Below, in pieces: positions 42,920 through 54,742 of a stretch of 64,000 bases of DNA (within the stretch, counting starts at the first letter, position 1; every line of letters begins with the position of its first letter). Made by a program: the position numbers and the translations under genes. The stretch covers positions 1-64,000 of the forward strand of contig NZ_SLWX01000002.1 in assembly GCF_004340525.1 (NCBI RefSeq), in the 5' to 3' direction. The notes beneath the pieces were generated by a model. It worked only from the letters and a program-made list of their open reading frames with translations. It did not search any database and was not told the DNA's origin. This DNA comes from Chromatocurvus halotolerans (lineage in GTDB: Bacteria > Pseudomonadota > Gammaproteobacteria > Pseudomonadales > Halieaceae).

Positions 42920-43004
42920 GTGGGTATCCAGCTGATTTGTGCCTATGGCACCATTGTCCCGTATCCTGCGCATCGATGCACTTGCGTGCGGGAGCGGGAG
43001 AATC

Positions 43005-45467
43005 ATGGCGAGGAAACATTACCTGCACCGGCTGTTCGAGCCAGACAGCGTTGCCGTCGTCGGGGCCTCTGATCGTATTGATGCCGTGGGGGGCAGAGTC
43101 CTGCACAACATCCTCGGCGGCGGTTTTTCGGGCGCGGTATATCCGGTCAACTCCCGCCGCACGACGGTCCAGGGTTTGCAGGCCTATCCCCGAATAGGAG
43201 CGATCGGCGTTGCACTGGACCTGGTTGTCATTGCCGTGCCCGCGAGCGATGTCCCCGACGTGCTGCTCGATGCGGCCCAGGCTGGCGTCTCGGCGGCGAT
43301 TGTCCTTTCCGCCGGCTTTGGTGGTCAGGCGACGGATGGCCTGTCGCAGCAGCCGCTGGTCAGGATCGCCCGGGAGCACGGCATCGCGCTGCTCGGCCCG
43401 CATACGCTCGGTGTGCTGCGCCCGTCCTGGAACTTCAATGCCAGCTTCGCGCGCAGTGTGGTGGGGCCCGGGCGCGTTGCTCTGTTGTCCCAGTCCGTGG
43501 GTTTCTGCAATGCCATGCTCGACTGGGCGGCCTCGAATCACTTTGGAATGTCCCTGCTGGCGTCTCCCGGTGCGGCCGCCGATGTGGATTTCGGCGACCT
43601 GCTTGACTATTGCGCGGTGGATGCGTCAACGCGCAGCGTTCTTCTCTATGTAGAGCGCATTGCCGATGCCCGGGCCTTTGTCAGCGGACTGCGGCTTGCT
43701 GCGCGGGTGAAGCCTGTTGTCGTGCTCAAGTCGGGCGGTGGAGCCATCAATGATACCGCGATTGACCAGGCACCCATGGCGGATGCTGCGTTTGATGCCG
43801 CCGTCAGGCGCGCCGGTGCCGTGCGCGTGAGCAGCGTGCATGAACTGCTAACGGCGGCACGGACCCTGGCTTCGGGTACCAAAGCGGCGGCGGGGCAGCG
43901 CGTGGTGATGATCACCAATGCCGCCGGCCCGGGAGCCATGGCCACGAACCGCGCCCGCCACCATGGCCTGCCAATGGCCTGTCCCTCCGCGTCCACCCGC
44001 GAGGCGCTAACCGCCGTAATGCCGTCCGGCTGGCAGTGCAGCAATCCGGTCGATTTGCTGGGTGATGCCGCCCCCGCGCGTTTTGCCGAGGCAGCGAAAG
44101 CGCTGTTGGGCGATCCCGAGGTGGATACGTTACTGGCGCTGTTGACACCGCAGGGCGTGACCGATCCGCTTGCCTGCGCAGAGGCGCTGGTTGCACAGGC
44201 CAACCCCGCGGGCAAGCCGGTAATGGCCTGCTGGATGGGGCAGGATCTGGTGGCAGACAGCCGCGCGCTGCTGTCTGCCGCCTCGATTCCGCAATTTTCA
44301 AGTCCCGAGCGGGCGGTGGATGCGCTGGCTTATCTCGCCAGCTACCGGAACAGCCAGAATCTGCTCCTGCAGCTCACGCCACCCCTGTCTCGACATGCCG
44401 CTCCCGATCTACCCCGCGCCAGGGCGCTTGTCAGAGATCACATGACCGCTGAAGCATCGCGCTTGCCGGCAGCGGCTGTGGTCGAGTTGTTCGACGCCAT
44501 GGATGCCCGGGTGGTTCCCTCGCCTGCTGCCATGACGGGCGCGCCGGCGTCTTTTCATCGTCGTATCGCGTTGCTTCTTGCGCGGGCGCCGGCCTTTGGG
44601 CCGGTGTTATTCCTCGGCCCTGCCGGCAGTATCCTGCCGCGTCTTGACGGTGTGCAGGCGTCACTGCCCCCGCTTAACGATTACCTGTGTCGGGAGCTGC
44701 TAGGGCGCGTGACAAAGCGCTTTGCCATGGAGCCCCTTTTGCCCTCGCAGGAAACCCAACTGATAGATATGCTGATGACGCTGTCGGCGATCGCCTGTGA
44801 GATTCCCGAGGTCGAAAGCATCAGCCTGCCGTACCTGCCGCTGGGCGATGCAGCAGTGCCGGAAGCCGAGCGCATAGAGGTTTCCCTAGTCCCCCGGGGC
44901 GTCGGCGCTACCGCATCCAGCTATGGCCATATGGCCATACTTCCCTACCCGGGTGAGCTGGAAAACCGGGTGTCACTCCCCGACGGAGAATCCCTGCTGA
45001 TTCGGCCGATACGCCCGGAAGATGCCGACATGGAGCAGCGTTTCGTGGATGGCTTGTCGGCGCAGAGCCGTTATTACCGTTTCATGTATCGCCTCGATCA
45101 TCTTTCCACTGCCATGCTTGCGCGCTTCACCCAGATCGACTACGACCGTGAGATGGCCCTGGTGGCCGTTGTCGACAGCGGTTTGCCGGGTGAGCGCATT
45201 GTCGGCGTGTCGCGCTATGCCGTGAACTCGGATGCCGTTTCCTGCGAGTTTGCCCTGGCGGTGTCCGACGAGATTCAGGGCCGGGGTATCGGAAGCCAGT
45301 TAATGCAAGCGCTATTTCGCATTGCGCGCGATCGCGGCCTCGAGCTCATGGAGGGTGAAGTGCTGGCCCACAATCGCAAGATGCTTGCACTGTGCCGCGG
45401 TCTTGGCTTCAGCCTGAAGCGTCGTCTCGACGATCCTGATATTGTCGCGGTTACCCGACCGCTTTAG
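43005..45467 (+). CDS. PatZ-like protein lysine acetyltransferase with degenerate acyl-CoA synthetase half
   Basis: 820 residues. N-terminal CoA-binding Rossmann domain (FEPDSVAVVGASDR, 11-24), two succinyl-CoA-ligase-like domains to about 460, then a shortened remnant of ATP-grasp and a C-terminal GNAT domain (about 660-820) with the acetyl-CoA loop QGRGIG at 758-763 and the family segment FTQIDYDREMALVAV. Where ADP-forming synthetases carry the phosphorylated histidine (SHTGA), this has IDQAPMAD (about 251-258). The ATP-grasp lobe with the GYPVALK-type lysine is missing: about 85 residues found in E. coli PatZ are replaced by about 20 (around 505-530). Start at ATG 43005 with GGGAG upstream. 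Expected to acetylate lysines, not to make acyl-CoA. Confidence 0.85.
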   Translation: MARKHYLHRLFEPDSVAVVGASDRIDAVGGRVLHNILGGGFSGAVYPVNSRRTTVQGLQAYPRIGAIGVALDLVVIAVPASDVPDVLLDAAQAGVSAAIVLSAGFGGQATDGLSQQPLVRIAREHGIALLGPHTLGVLRPSWNFNASFARSVVGPGRVALLSQSVGFCNAMLDWAASNHFGMSLLASPGAAADVDFGDLLDYCAVDASTRSVLLYVERIADARAFVSGLRLAARVKPVVVLKSGGGAINDTAIDQAPMADAAFDAAVRRAGAVRVSSVHELLTAARTLASGTKAAAGQRVVMITNAAGPGAMATNRARHHGLPMACPSASTREALTAVMPSGWQCSNPVDLLGDAAPARFAEAAKALLGDPEVDTLLALLTPQGVTDPLACAEALVAQANPAGKPVMACWMGQDLVADSRALLSAASIPQFSSPERAVDALAYLASYRNSQNLLLQLTPPLSRHAAPDLPRARALVRDHMTAEASRLPAAAVVELFDAMDARVVPSPAAMTGAPASFHRRIALLLARAPAFGPVLFLGPAGSILPRLDGVQASLPPLNDYLCRELLGRVTKRFAMEPLLPSQETQLIDMLMTLSAIACEIPEVESISLPYLPLGDAAVPEAERIEVSLVPRGVGATASSYGHMAILPYPGELENRVSLPDGESLLIRPIRPEDADMEQRFVDGLSAQSRYYRFMYRLDHLSTAMLARFTQIDYDREMALVAVVDSGLPGERIVGVSRYAVNSDAVSCEFALAVSDEIQGRGIGSQLMQALFRIARDRGLELMEGEVLAHNRKMLALCRGLGFSLKRRLDDPDIVAVTRPL

Positions 45468-49155: not shown

Positions 49156-49836
49156 TCAGCCGAGAAATTCGCCGCGCGTACTGGCGTCGGTCTTGAATGC
49201 ACCACCGAGTGCCGTGGTCCGGGTTGTCGAGTTACTGTCCATGACGCCGCGTGATTTCACGCAATAGTGGACAGCGTTCACGGTCACGGCGACGTCGTCG
49301 GTCTCCAGCAGCGTTTGCAGCGCGACGAGGATCTGCTGTGTCAACCGTTCCTGGACCTGGGGGCGCTGGGAGAAAAAGCGCACAATGCGGTTGATCTTTG
49401 ACAGGCCGATGATCCGGTGCCGCGGTATGTACGCAACCCTGGCGCTCCCGTCGATGGTGACGAAATGATGCTCACAGGTGCTCACCAGATCGATCTTGTC
49501 GATGCAGACCATCTCCTCCACCTGCATCTTGTTGTCGATGACCGATATGGACGGGAATTTTGCATAGTCCAACCCGGAAAAGATCTCGTCGACGTACATT
49601 TTGGCAATCCGGTGCGGCGTTTCACGGAGACTGTCGTCGCGCAGGTCAAGTCCTAGCACTTGCGCGATTTCCGTGAAGGCATCACGAATCCGGGCGTATT
49701 TCTCATCCCGGTCGAGACCGTTGTGAACTAGCGGTGTCTCGAGGCCTTTATCGGTCAGCGCTTTCTGCACCATGGCAGCTTCGGCACTGAGGTTGGTTGT
49801 GACGTCCGGGCAGGTAATAGCATGGGCAGTGGTCAT
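49156..49836 (-). CDS. folE: GTP cyclohydrolase I
   Basis: 226-residue type I GTP cyclohydrolase, first step of tetrahydrofolate synthesis. Zinc ligands C121 and H124 in STCEHHF and C192 in [21 protein letters not shown] and GLSKINRIV are further family motifs. ATG start; the first 40 or so residues are a variable extension as in E. coli FolE (222 aa). It diverges from the GAPDH pair across a 151-base gap, which must hold both promoters; I see no clear one. Confidence 0.93.
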
Positions 49837-49987
49837 GTCGAGTCTCCATCAACGTAAACAGAAATACGCGGACCTTGCCCGCCCAGATTGCCGGGAACAT
49901 GGTCAAAGTAGCGACAGGTTTGCGCTGCCATGCGATGAGTGCAAGACTATTCACAGCGCAGTTACCCTACCTTTGGAGATTTTCAGT

Positions 49988-51007
49988 ATGTCGACAGACA
50001 GGCCAGTACGCCTTGGGCTGATGGGCTTCGGGCAGACGGGACGCCAGCTGTATGATCTGGCATCGCACCGGGACGACATCACCGTCATTGCCATTGCCGA
50101 TATCGGCAAGCCCCAGATTCTCCACTACCTGCTGCAGTCGGAAGTTGCCAGACCGGCGGAGTATTCCCTGGATGGCAATTATCTGGTGGGTCCCGGCGGT
50201 CGCACACGCCTGATGTCCACCGACCAGCCGGCGGAAATGCCCTGGGATGTGTTTGACGTGGATCTCGTGATCGACGCCACCGGGCGCTACCGCAGCGCTG
50301 ACGAGATGCGTGCCCATCTGGGCAACGGCGCTCCCAGAGTGCTGCTGCGCACGCTCCCCGGGGATGATATCGATCGCATCGTGATACCCGGCGTCAACGA
50401 GGAGAGTATTGCCCCGCAGGATCGCATGGTCTCCGCCGGTTCACCGACAACATCGGCACTGTGCCTGCTCCTGCACACGCTGTCGCAGCACTTCGTGATC
50501 GAGTGCGGCAGTGCCACCACGGTACATGCGTACACGTCGGACCAGGCGCTGCAGGACTATGCGGGCAGCGATTACCGGCGCAGTCGCTCCGCGGCGCGCA
50601 ATATCATTCCCAACGGCCATGAGGCCGGCCACTGGCTGGGCCATGTGCTGCCGCTGTTTGCCGGCAAGATAACGACGTCGACACTCAATGTGCCCGTGCA
50701 GGAGGGCTGCCTGCTTGACGTGAACCTGGTGTTCGAGGATGCCGCCGTGACCGCCGATGACGTCAACCGGGTCATGACCGAGGCAGCAAAGCGCCTGCCT
50801 GAGCAGATGGGCGTGATAGATGATCCGATTGTGTCCTCCGATGTGCTCGGCAGCAGTCTGTCGCTGCTGTTCGACATTCAGGGGACGTTGAAAGCCGGGG
50901 AACATTTCGTCAAGACCCTGTCCTGGTATGAAACGCGGGGGCATGCCGCGCGGCTTCTCGACGTTGCCCGACTCTACCATCGACTTGATGCCAGGGAGGT
51001 TGCGTAA
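49988..51007 (+). CDS. GAPDH-like pseudoenzyme lacking the catalytic cysteine
   Basis: 339 residues with the full two-domain GAPDH layout but a changed active site. The nucleotide motif is GFGQTGR (GFGRIGR in the next gene). At the SNASCTTN position it reads SAGSPTTS, so residue 153 is proline where the paralogue has the nucleophile C153. H180 (HAYTSDQ) is kept at the same number. The phosphate-site segment STGAAK has become NGHEAGHW, and the arginine of SRVPVSDG is asparagine (TLNVPVQEG). Dehydrogenase activity is therefore very unlikely. GGAGA precedes the ATG. Its stop shares a base with the true GAPDH start (TAATG), so the proteins are made together and could form mixed tetramers. Confidence 0.88.
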   Translation: MSTDRPVRLGLMGFGQTGRQLYDLASHRDDITVIAIADIGKPQILHYLLQSEVARPAEYSLDGNYLVGPGGRTRLMSTDQPAEMPWDVFDVDLVIDATGRYRSADEMRAHLGNGAPRVLLRTLPGDDIDRIVIPGVNEESIAPQDRMVSAGSPTTSALCLLLHTLSQHFVIECGSATTVHAYTSDQALQDYAGSDYRRSRSAARNIIPNGHEAGHWLGHVLPLFAGKITTSTLNVPVQEGCLLDVNLVFEDAAVTADDVNRVMTEAAKRLPEQMGVIDDPIVSSDVLGSSLSLLFDIQGTLKAGEHFVKTLSWYETRGHAARLLDVARLYHRLDAREVA

Positions 51008-52014
51008 TGAAAAACCTCAAGGTCGCCATCAATGGCTTCGGGCGAATCGGCCGCTCCGTCTTCCGCATACTCGAGGACGTGGAGGGTATCGATGTTGTCG
51101 CCATCAATGATCTCTTCGACCACGACGCCCTGCGCTATCTGCTCAATTACGACACTGTCATGGGCCGCTTCAAGGGTGAGCTGGCGTTGCAGGATGACCA
51201 TATTGTGACTGGCAAGAGCCGTGTCCGTATGCTCAGCGAACGGGATCCCTCGGCGTTGCCCTGGGCTGAACTTGGCGTGGACGCAGTGATCGAGGCCACC
51301 GGCGCATTTCGCACGCGGGAGAAGCTGCAGCTGCACATCGACGCCGGTGCCGACCGCGTGGTGCTGACCGTACCGGCAAAGGATGATATCGACTTCATGG
51401 TCGTGCTGGGAGTAAACGACGAACAGCTTGAGCCGGCGCACCGGATCATCTCCAACGCGAGCTGTACGACAAACTGTCTGGCGCCGATGGTGCGCGTGCT
51501 GAATGACAGTTTCGGCGTCGTCGAGGGTGTCATGAACACGGTGCACGCCTATACCAACGACCAGCGGCTTGCAGATGTCCCGCACTCTGACTGGCGTCGC
51601 AGTCGAGCGGCTGCGGAAAACATTATCCCGACCTCTACCGGTGCCGCGAAAGCGGTCGGCAAGGTGTTGCCGGAACTTGCCGGCAAATTGCACGGCATCG
51701 CATCCCGGGTACCGGTTTCCGACGGCTCGGTGGTGGATCTGTTTGTGAAGCTGGGGCGCACGGTCAGCGTGGAGGAGGTACATCGGGTCGTGAAAGCCGC
51801 ATCCGAGAGCGACACCCTGGCGGGCATCCTGCAGTTCAGCGAGCGGCCGCTGGTGTCTTCAGACATTATAGGCAACAGCCACTCCTCGATATTTGACAGT
51901 GGTTTTACCGCAGTGACCAACGGCCGGTATCTGCGGGTGCTGAACTGGTACGACAATGAATGGGGTTACAGCTGCCGCGTCTGCGACCTGCTGGAGCGAT
52001 TCCGACAGTGGTAA
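51007..52014 (+). CDS. gap: type I glyceraldehyde-3-phosphate dehydrogenase
   Basis: 335-residue canonical GAPDH oxidising glyceraldehyde-3-phosphate to 1,3-bisphosphoglycerate. GFGRIGRSVFR at the N-terminus, catalytic C153 in SNASCTTNCLAP, H180 in HAYTNDQ, phosphate residues in STGAAKAVGK and ASRVPVSDGS, and WYDNEWGYSCR near the end. Whether it prefers NAD or NADP cannot be fixed from this. Translationally coupled to the upstream pseudoenzyme and followed 49 bases later by ppc. No pgk follows, unlike the common gap-pgk order. Confidence 0.95.
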   Translation: MKNLKVAINGFGRIGRSVFRILEDVEGIDVVAINDLFDHDALRYLLNYDTVMGRFKGELALQDDHIVTGKSRVRMLSERDPSALPWAELGVDAVIEATGAFRTREKLQLHIDAGADRVVLTVPAKDDIDFMVVLGVNDEQLEPAHRIISNASCTTNCLAPMVRVLNDSFGVVEGVMNTVHAYTNDQRLADVPHSDWRRSRAAAENIIPTSTGAAKAVGKVLPELAGKLHGIASRVPVSDGSVVDLFVKLGRTVSVEEVHRVVKAASESDTLAGILQFSERPLVSSDIIGNSHSSIFDSGFTAVTNGRYLRVLNWYDNEWGYSCRVCDLLERFRQW

Positions 52015-52063: not shown

Positions 52064-54742
52064 ATGGTTCACTGGGCGAAAGAAGGCAATGCTCAGGACG
52101 AGCCGCTCCGGGGTGATACCTATGCCAGTCTGCGACGCAATGTCAGTATGCTGGGCAGCGTTCTTGGCGAAGTTATCGCCTCTGCCGAGGGTGAGGACTT
52201 TCTGGCAGGCGTTGAACGCATCCGACAGCTCTCCCGCAGCTCCCGCGATGGCGACAGTGAAGACCGGGACCGGCTGATTGACGCCCTGCACAGTCTGCCC
52301 GAGAAAGACATGCTGTCGGTGGCCCGCGCCTTCAGCCAGTTTCTCAACCTGGCAAATATCGCCGACCAGCAGCACAGCGTGTCGAGGGAGATGGTGCAGC
52401 AGTTCTCGCCGTCGAGCATGCTGTCAGGCATGGTGGACGAGCTGCTTGCTGCCGACATCGATCCGACCGGGGTCGCGCAGACGATTGACGCCCTCAATAT
52501 CGAGTTGGTGCTGACGGCGCATCCCACGGAAATCATGCGTCGAACACTGATCCACAAGCACCGCGAAATCGGTCGTTGCCTGTCTGATCTCGAGCTCTCC
52601 GGGCGTACCGATGCCGAGCGCGAGCGACTGCAGCAGCGTGTGCGGGAGCTCGTTGCACAGATCTGGTTCGGAGAGGAGTTCCGGGCTGAGCGACCCACAC
52701 CGGTGGATGAGGCGAAGTGGGGCTTCGCCGTGGTCGAGGACTCTCTCTGGAATGCGGTGCCGGAATTCCTGCGCCGCCTCGATCGCGCCCGGCAGCGCGC
52801 CTGCGGGGAAGGCCTGCCGCTGGATGCGGCACCGGTACGATTTCTTTCCTGGATGGGCGGCGACCGTGACGGCAATCCCAATGTCACGGCCAGCGTGACT
52901 GAAGAGGTATTGCTGCTGGCCCGCTGGCAGGCCGCCGACCTCTACCTCCGCGATATCGAGGATCTGATCGAAGAACTGTCTGTCACGCGCTGTGATGCTC
53001 ACCTTCGCGAGCGCAACCCCGAAGCCCGTGAGCCCTACCGTGCAGAGTTGCGCAAACTTCGCCGGCTGCTGCGGGACACCCTGAGCTACCTCGAGGCGGT
53101 GCTCGCCGGCGAGTCGCCTGCAGAGCCTGCGGATGGGGACTGGCTGCACAATGAACAGCAGCTGCGCGAGCCCCTGCTGTTCTGCTATCGCTCACTTGAG
53201 GCCTGCGGCATGCAGGCCATAGCGCAGAGTCGTCTTCTGGACAGTTTGCGTCGCGTGGAGTGCTTTGGCGTTCATCTTGTGCGCCTGGACATTCGCCAGG
53301 ACAGCGCCCGGCACACGGCGGCATTGGCCGAGATTACCCGATACCTCGAGCTCGGGGACTATGCCGCCTGGGATGAGCCGCATCGCCTGGCGTTTCTGGT
53401 GTCCGAGCTGCAGGGACGCCGGCCGCTGCTGCCGTGGGGATGGCGGGGGAGTGATGACGCGCAGGAGGTTTTCGATACCTGTCGCGCCATCGCTGCACAG
53501 CCGGCCGCGTCGCTGGGTGCCTATGTCATTTCCATGGCCCGCGAGGCGTCTGATGTGCTGGCGGTGCATCTGCTGCTGCGCGAGTTTGGCTGTCGTGTTG
53601 CCCTCCCTGTTGCGCCGCTGTTTGAAACCCTGGATGACCTCTCCAACGCCAGCCGTGTTGTGGAGGGTCTGCTGCAGATCCCCTGGTATCGCGAGCACAT
53701 AGACGGCCGCATGATGGTCATGATCGGCTATTCAGACTCCGCCAAGGATGCCGGCGTTTTTGCCGCTGCCTGGGCGCAGTATCAGGCCCAGGAAGCGCTG
53801 CTTTCGGTGTGCCGTACGAATGCCGTGGAGCTGACGCTGTTTCATGGGCGCGGTGGCACGATTGGACGTGGCGGGGCGCCTGCCTATGACGCGCTGCTGT
53901 CACAGCCACCCGGGTCGTTGCGCAATGGTCTTCGGGTTACCGAACAGGGCGAGATGATTCGCGCCAAGCTCGGCCTGACCTCGATTGCCGTGCGCACCCT
54001 GGCTCTGTACGCCAGCGCCATCTGCCGCACGAACCTGATCAGTCCGCCGCGTCCGAAGCAGGCCTGGCGCGAGGGCATGAACGCCATGGCCGAGAGTTCC
54101 TGCGCCGCCTATCGACGGGTAGTGCGCGACAATCCCGATTTTGTCGACTATTTCCGTCACGCGACACCCGAGCAGGAGCTGGCAAGTCTGCCTCTGGGAT
54201 CGCGGCCGGCGCGGCGTCGGGGAAGCGGAGGAATCGAGAGCCTGCGCGCCATTCCCTGGATATTTGCCTGGTCGCAGAACCGGCTAATGCTTCCCGCCTG
54301 GCTGGGGGCGGGGCATGCGCTGCGTGAAGCACTGACGGGCGGGCACGCGCAGACGATTGCGGAAATGGCCCGGGAGTGGCCCTTCTTCGCCACGCGTCTG
54401 GCCATGCTGGAAATGGTTTTTGCCAAGGCCGATGCCGGCTTGTCTGCACATTACGACGTCCATCTGGTACCAGACAACCTGCGCGATATCGGCGAGGCGC
54501 TGCGCGCGGAAATGGCGGCAGACCGGGATACCGTCATGTCCCTGCTGGGGGTCGATGCCTTGCTGGAAACTCAGGTATGGGCCGCTGAATCGATATCACT
54601 GCGCAATGTCTACACAGACCCCCTGAACTATCTTCAGGTCGAGTTGCTCACACGAACCCGGGAAACCGCCGACCCGGTGGCCCAGCGGGCCATGATGGTC
54701 ACGATAGCGGGTATCGCGGCGGGCATGCGCAATACCGGCTGA
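52064..54742 (+). CDS. ppc: phosphoenolpyruvate carboxylase
   Basis: 892-residue anaplerotic enzyme making oxaloacetate from PEP and bicarbonate. Catalytic histidine H153 in TAHPTEI; GYSDSAKDAG and FHGRGGTIGRGGAP are the other active-site loops, and the chain ends with the invariant MRNTG. Start taken at ATG 52064 (MVHWAKEGN), since the open frame upstream overlaps gap without family similarity. E. coli Ppc is 883. Together with gap it places a glycolysis-to-TCA node in one unit. Confidence 0.95.
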   Translation: MVHWAKEGNAQDEPLRGDTYASLRRNVSMLGSVLGEVIASAEGEDFLAGVERIRQLSRSSRDGDSEDRDRLIDALHSLPEKDMLSVARAFSQFLNLANIADQQHSVSREMVQQFSPSSMLSGMVDELLAADIDPTGVAQTIDALNIELVLTAHPTEIMRRTLIHKHREIGRCLSDLELSGRTDAERERLQQRVRELVAQIWFGEEFRAERPTPVDEAKWGFAVVEDSLWNAVPEFLRRLDRARQRACGEGLPLDAAPVRFLSWMGGDRDGNPNVTASVTEEVLLLARWQAADLYLRDIEDLIEELSVTRCDAHLRERNPEAREPYRAELRKLRRLLRDTLSYLEAVLAGESPAEPADGDWLHNEQQLREPLLFCYRSLEACGMQAIAQSRLLDSLRRVECFGVHLVRLDIRQDSARHTAALAEITRYLELGDYAAWDEPHRLAFLVSELQGRRPLLPWGWRGSDDAQEVFDTCRAIAAQPAASLGAYVISMAREASDVLAVHLLLREFGCRVALPVAPLFETLDDLSNASRVVEGLLQIPWYREHIDGRMMVMIGYSDSAKDAGVFAAAWAQYQAQEALLSVCRTNAVELTLFHGRGGTIGRGGAPAYDALLSQPPGSLRNGLRVTEQGEMIRAKLGLTSIAVRTLALYASAICRTNLISPPRPKQAWREGMNAMAESSCAAYRRVVRDNPDFVDYFRHATPEQELASLPLGSRPARRRGSGGIESLRAIPWIFAWSQNRLMLPAWLGAGHALREALTGGHAQTIAEMAREWPFFATRLAMLEMVFAKADAGLSAHYDVHLVPDNLRDIGEALRAEMAADRDTVMSLLGVDALLETQVWAAESISLRNVYTDPLNYLQVELLTRTRETADPVAQRAMMVTIAGIAAGMRNTG

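Follow-up and report, generated by a model that had tools for sequence, protein, structure and literature searches.

The window, a 64,000-nucleotide stretch of DNA from Chromatocurvus halotolerans, carries two overlapping genes of the GAPDH family which, on sequence evidence, are a real, old and selectively kept pseudoenzyme-enzyme pair (Table 1). Textbooks describe GAPDH as a homotetramer, and it serves as a model of how subunits cooperate. Here, the product of gene 1 is probably (we put this at roughly 60%) a dead paralogue that co-assembles with the gene 2 GAPDH in a mixed tetramer and tunes it, a reading favored indirectly, in that the S-loop of gene 1 is selectively conserved and the two genes are paired. 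If true, an unnoticed control point would be added to central metabolism in a marine bacterial family, and, with a live and a dead subunit genetically fixed as a natural pair, subunit contacts, half-site behavior and coenzyme choice could be tested directly.

Table 1. Features of the GAPDH gene pair and its downstream neighbor in the window
Feature	Position	Strand	Basis or remark
GGAG, possible ribosome-binding site of gene 1	49975..49978	+	
Gene 1, predicted GAPDH pseudoenzyme, 339 aa	49988..51007	+	Pro153 replaces catalytic Cys
Codon 153 of gene 1, CCG (Pro)	50444..50446	+	Sequence and alignment
Codons 173 and 241 of gene 1 (Cys)	50504..50506, 50708..50710		Possible cross-strand pair
S-loop stretch of gene 1, residues 177-208	50516..50611	+	Top conservation, with 178-209
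GGGAGG, possible ribosome-binding site of gene 2	50994..50999	+	Within the 3' end of gene 1
TAATG, gene 1 stop and gene 2 start	51005..51009	+	Read from sequence
Gene 2, type I GAPDH, 335 aa, Cys153	51007..52014	+	Frame, profile, alignment
Codon 153 of gene 2, TGT (catalytic Cys)	51463..51465	+	Sequence and alignment
ppc (phosphoenolpyruvate carboxylase), name presumed	52064..54742	+	Start picked by eye

Layout of the gene pair

The first-pass annotation had described two GAPDH genes in tandem, joined by a TAATG overlap, and the coordinates of both were borne out, with 1 base common to the TAA (51005-51007) and the ATG (51007-51009). The start of gene 1 agrees with the lengths of its orthologues, though the open frame reaches upstream to 49772. 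The GGGAGG lies seven bases upstream of the gene 2 start codon. As raw counts, 44 of 44 loci had a loose purine motif upstream of gene 2, and 43 of 44 had a loose motif upstream of gene 1. With start codons chosen by script, the frames of the two genes overlapped in 41 of the 44 measurable loci (by 1 base in 28, 4 bases in 11 and 10 bases in 2), and the three nonoverlapping loci had gaps of 0, 10 and 15 bases, one each. Such overlapping frames would keep both proteins in step.

Protein 1 is a predicted pseudoenzyme

Alignment of the two proteins placed Pro153 of protein 1 opposite Cys153 of protein 2, which lies in the motif SNASCTTN, and so agreed with the initial reading that the catalytic Cys had been lost. 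The same reading had listed a lost phosphate site, a lost arginine, a retained His180 and a preserved overall fold, and each of these held: where protein 2 has STGAAK (residues 210 to 215) and R234, protein 1 has GHEAGH and N234; H180 is present in protein 1 and in 48/48 orthologue rows; and protein 1 has both the Gp_dh_N and Gp_dh_C domains and a GAPDH-like predicted model. The Pfam scores of protein 1 were above the cutoffs (Gp_dh_N, 55.4 bits; Gp_dh_C, 118.5 bits), and protein 2 likewise matched both domains. Against the NCBIfam type I GAPDH model (TIGR01534; cutoff, 367.2 bits), protein 1 scored below the cutoff (220.7 bits) and protein 2 above it (427.7 bits). A simple family search annotates gene 1 as GAPDH, so metabolic models of these organisms may count a nonenzyme as an enzyme.

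Proline is one of several replacements of the Cys in gene 1: among 48 aligned rows, position 153 was Ala in 32, Pro in 8, Ser in 5 and Gly in 3, Ala being the commonest, and Cys was found in none. At position 234, the place of the phosphate-site Arg, Asn was found in 48/48 rows. C153, H180 and R234 of gene 2 were present in 44/44 rows from the order and in 3/3 from outside it, and all 30 other GAPDH rows have Cys153 and Arg234. For E. coli GAPDH, roles have been described for Cys150, His177, Thr180, Thr182, Thr209 and Arg232 in the available text of that report (PMC8615399); we matched this numbering to the present alignment ourselves. On the alignments, the tree and the dN/dS values, gene 1 is a conserved member of the GAPDH family without the catalytic motifs, kept by selection, and hence a predicted pseudoenzyme.

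It is quite unlikely that the product of gene 1 instead catalyzes a novel reaction that relies on His180 and clade-specific residues. His180, Asp185, Arg198 and Ser152 are invariant in 45 rows from the order, and N209, N234 and H319 are new invariants, as such an enzyme might have; however, position 153 varies among four residues, no stretch of the protein is more relaxed than the phosphate loop, and the three rows from outside the order have Gln in place of Arg198.

The genome has four members of the GAPDH family, namely, the pair, an Epd-like protein (503.0 bits, against an Epd cutoff of 530.55) and a long form (776.8 versus 431 bits for PRK08289), which also passed the type I model narrowly (369.9 versus 367.2 bits). 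The gene of the Epd-like protein lies in a row that, by eye, we take to be tkt, epd, pgk and fba. Since the other members are Epd-like, long or gene 1 itself, gene 2 encodes the sole ordinary short GapA-like GAPDH of this genome.

Distribution and pairing

Orthologues of gene 1 were found in 66 of 140 genomes of the family (Halieaceae), in 53 of its 78 good-quality genomes and in 23 of 28 genera, and in 23 of 244 genomes sampled from the order. Outside the order, the 321 genomes sampled from the class yielded, apart from the window genome, two genomes of a single genus, and in a phylum sample of 299 the window genome was the sole match; both samples were searched at E <= 1e-90, at which distant cases could be missed. 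A third genome of the outside-order genus was found in another search, in which 12 of 94 genomes matched and the remaining nine matches carry Cys. Among the best 10 of 262 matches of protein 1 in plasmid records, there was no sign of an orthologue (best listed, 38.3% identity); nine of these ten were annotated gap and one had no feature.

Every one of the 66 family genomes with gene 1 also had gene 2. The two genes were adjacent in 46 of 47 loci, and the remaining locus (L011) stops at a contig edge. A search with gene 2 gave matches in 67 of the 140 family genomes, two of which, in G030 (55% identity) and G925 (51%), were excluded as nonorthologues; the G030 protein fell outside the gene 2 branch of the tree, and the G925 protein was absent from the tree. 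The remaining 65 comprise every family genome with gene 1 except G941, in which gene 2 begins beside gene 1 and then runs off the contig. In G022 and G878, gene 2 was a partial match on a separate contig. One genome (G870) has the whole pair twice, on contigs C16 and C318, with both genes in each.

Age and selection

The proposal that a pseudoenzyme had been kept at full length beside its enzyme was upheld by the absence of Cys from all 48 rows, a single branch, low dN/dS and the pairing. In a tree of 84 proteins (27 gene 1 rows and 27 gene 2 rows; rooted for drawing only), gene 1 formed one side of a branch with a support of 100/100, and the gene 2 branch had a support of 100/95. Long branches flagged in this tree belonged to rows outside both groups, and protein 1 of one locus (L050) was flagged for odd composition. 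Omega was 0.024 to 0.230 for gene 1 and 0.021 to 0.116 for gene 2 (14 of 15 pairs computable), with most pairs near saturation at silent sites; in the five pairs with dS < 1 in both genes, omega of gene 1 was 0.024 to 0.094. Omega was thus far below 1, and both genes are under purifying selection. Gene 1 evolves faster, with a mean column identity of 69% versus 81% for gene 2, and 63 of its columns were invariant in 44 rows.

Gene 1 proteins from outside the order (L055, L056 and L070; genomes G499, G383 and G954) have Ser at position 153. Seven states, M9, D96, R130, G151, L160, N209 and N234, were common to gene 1 of the order and of the outside group and rare or absent in gene 2 and the 30 other GAPDH rows. 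Because both groups have these states in common, the loss of the Cys and the Arg most simply predates their split. The first genes of the diverged pairs in L055, L056 and L070 still have the GRF loop and WYDNGWGY and are a possible intermediate.

That gene 1 is a decaying recent duplicate is barely credible. A broken copy does occur in 2 of 47 loci, but gene 1 forms one old branch, is full length and has an omega far below 1 and 63 invariant columns; given the old branch, the omega values and the pairing, recent decay was rejected. In the two loci concerned (L034 and L051), gene 1 is broken (two frames or an in-frame TGA) and gene 2 is open, and the breaks are either sequencing errors or real losses.

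Trees of the two genes were also correlated with each other and with that of RecA in 24 genomes, using quick trees and excluding G017 and G067, in which the RecA match was split or weak. The correlations were 0.92 (gene 1-gene 2), 0.81 (gene 1-RecA) and 0.85 (gene 2-RecA), with 11, 8 and 9 of 21 splits shared, respectively, and the gene 1-gene 2 correlation was 0.74 with RecA taken out. Since linked genes travel together, this correlation is no proof of contact. The G048 genome belongs to another family; each gene of its pair branched with G039 and G019 (supports of 75 and 88 for gene 1 and 97 and 91 for gene 2), and RecA placed G048 elsewhere (80 and 85), which hints at joint transfer of the two genes.

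The S-loop and the proposed mixed tetramer

In solved GAPDHs, the S-loop forms a subunit interface, according to the available text of PMC9287727. Among 308 segments of 32 residues in gene 1, the two best conserved, 178-209 and 177-208, are the S-loop, with a mean conservation of 0.906 (0.995 in gene 2). The largest drops relative to gene 2 were in residues 210-219, the phosphate loop (0.36), and then in the N terminus, residues 2-11 (0.34). Identity between partners (43 pairs) was 0.655 in the S-loop versus 0.339 elsewhere; the corresponding values were 0.621 and 0.506 for other GAPDHs among themselves, 0.523 and 0.291 for gene 1 versus other GAPDHs, and 0.587 and 0.450 for gene 2 versus other GAPDHs. 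Gene 1 has Tyr191-Ala192 where gene 2 has Val-Pro, a site that we take to be residues 187-188 of the Bacillus enzyme; the title of structure entry 1dbv names a mutant of Bacillus residues 187-188. Residues R187, A189, W196, S199 and E204 of the S-loop are specific to the gene 2 branch, with S199 also found in gene 1.

These S-loop data fit a shared, remodeled interface and fit a gene 1 homotetramer equally well; the latter would lead one to expect the same conservation, and this counts against the mixed-tetramer reading, as do the faster evolution of gene 1, the low confidence of the protein 1 model in the S-loop and the lack of a HexR match or site in the window genome. An alternative in which the product of gene 1 assembles with itself and works as an independent ligand sensor or regulator, co-produced with the enzyme solely on account of a common role in sugar breakdown, is unlikely. 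The Rossmann residues G13, G15, G18, R19, D38 and T98 are invariant in 44 rows, and the clade-specific invariants of gene 1, which include N209, N234, K309, H319 and Y330, suggest a separate pocket, as would suit such a sensor; an adenosine site is proposed to be retained in a trypanosomatid protein, in the available text of PMC4106842. Against a separate oligomer stand the 66 family genomes, in none of which gene 1 occurs without gene 2, and the persistence of the pair while its other neighbors change.

A role for the product of gene 1 as an assembly factor, which would hold the gene 2 product during folding and then leave, is very unlikely. The overlapping frames with gene 1 first and the kept S-loop would suit this role, but clade-specific residues away from the interfaces are kept as well, and to our knowledge ordinary GAPDHs fold without a dedicated assembly factor.

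In the preferred mixed tetramer, the S-loop of the dead subunit would pack against a live subunit and contribute to the lining of the coenzyme site of that live subunit. The dead subunit would set the activity, stability or coenzyme response of a catabolic (Entner-Doudoroff) GAPDH, and a ligand in its retained Rossmann pocket may mediate the tuning. More speculative, and less likely than not, is that the mixed tetramer is obligate; part of its sites would then be dead by design, Tyr191-Ala192 of the dead S-loop would complete the coenzyme site of the live neighbor, the dead Rossmann pocket would read a metabolite, and Entner-Doudoroff flux would be set inside the enzyme itself.

Built on an alignment of five rows, the best predicted model of protein 1 was of middling confidence (mean pLDDT, 73.9; pTM, 0.76), with pLDDT below 50 in residues 183-209 of the S-loop and in residues 280-312; four other models were worse (60.4 to 45.4). 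Its best structural match, with many ties, was 1npt, a Cys149Ala mutant (Z, 34.2; rmsd, 2.3; 304 aligned). Positions 173 and 241 of gene 1 were both Cys in 31 of the 48 rows, and C241 was never found without C173; in two rows (L006 and L007), C173 remains but residue 241 is Ser. Because the pair arose once on the tree, it is weak evidence, and a redox switch through these residues was rejected on that single origin and the loss of the second Cys in two rows.

Comparison with known systems

Of the known systems that resemble the pair in part, the nearest is TbGAPDHL of trypanosomatids, a GAPDH paralogue in which Cys152 is replaced by Pro and an adenosine site is proposed to be retained; it is flagellar and eukaryotic, its conservation is much below that of active enzymes, and its relative in Bodo saltans keeps the Cys, according to the available text (PMC4106842). 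Gene 1 shares with it the replacement of the catalytic Cys by Pro but differs in being well conserved and paired with an active enzyme, whereas the available part of that report describes no paired active gene for TbGAPDHL. The 84-protein tree contained no TbGAPDHL sequences.

Chloroplast A2B2-GAPDH is a phosphorylating mixed tetramer of similar subunits, the B subunit having a 30-residue C-terminal extension that serves thioredoxin control, as given in the available text of PMC3824636. The likeness lies in two related GAPDH subunits, with B adding regulation; the difference is that a catalytic Cys was not found in both subunits here, gene 1 being without it. In the chloroplast B subunit, the C-terminal extension carries the regulatory Cys. 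The present pair has no such tail extension, gene 1 and gene 2 ending at similar places, and no column of gene 1 past residue 321 had Cys in at least 5 of 48 rows.

In deoxyhypusine synthase, an active and a dead paralogue form a heterotetramer in which the dead one raises activity 3,000-fold, as stated in the available text of PMC3663545. This pairing of live and dead subunits, in another enzyme family and other organisms, resembles the one proposed here. A term search of the text of a pseudoenzyme review (PMC10211241) gave no occurrence of either GAPDH or glyceraldehyde, and among the titles listed in literature searches, with subscription papers largely outside them, none pointed to a bacterial paired GAPDH pseudoenzyme.

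Gene neighborhood and sugar breakdown

Neighbors of the pair were compared across 23 stretches. One stretch (L112) has the order zwf, pgl, edd, eda, gene 1, gene 2, ppc, and in another (L110) the same four clusters (zwf, pgl, edd and eda) converge on the pair. In L104, eda lies upstream of the pair with hexR divergent, glk follows the pair in L117, and pgm precedes it in L111. The names zwf, edd and eda (L112), eda and hexR (L104), glk (L117) and pgm (L111) are from NCBIfam; pgl and ppc in these stretches are names that we presume. In stretches from other families (L113 to L121), almost no neighbor clusters were common between families, sharing being confined to stretches of one genus. Since the surroundings differ from lineage to lineage and the two genes remain side by side, the unit is the pair, and sugar breakdown is the theme that recurs around it. 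In some genomes, the pair sits within an Entner-Doudoroff cluster. A gene of the ppc cluster was downstream of the pair in 10 of the 23 stretches, two of them from one genome; ppc was therefore rejected as a true partner and is a frequent neighbor, not a fixed part.

The window genome has edd (860.9 bits), and a search of it for HexR gave no match at E <= 0.001. A HexR-like pattern, built on a consensus that we assume, gave 13 matches with at most 3 mismatches versus 18.35 expected, none of them before gene 1. Because the genome has no HexR match and the window no HexR-like site before gene 1, a tie to the sugar regulon lacks support in this genome, and HexR control of the pair in the window was rejected. 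In Pseudomonas, gapA is under HexR and lies beside edd, and the available part of the report mentions no second GAPDH gene (PMC12651266). The likeness is that of a type I GAPDH gene by Entner-Doudoroff genes, with the L104 pair flanked by hexR and eda; the pair differs from Pseudomonas gapA in its second GAPDH gene and, in the window genome, in having edd with no HexR match.

Divergent from the pair, the minus-strand frame at 49156-49836 looks by eye like GTP cyclohydrolase I, and its cluster was found in 7 of the 23 stretches. Farther upstream, at 42939-45467 on the plus strand, lies an open frame of 842 aa that by eye resembles a CoA-ligase with a C-terminal acetyltransferase domain, an architecture that we take to be like that of bacterial protein acetyltransferases.
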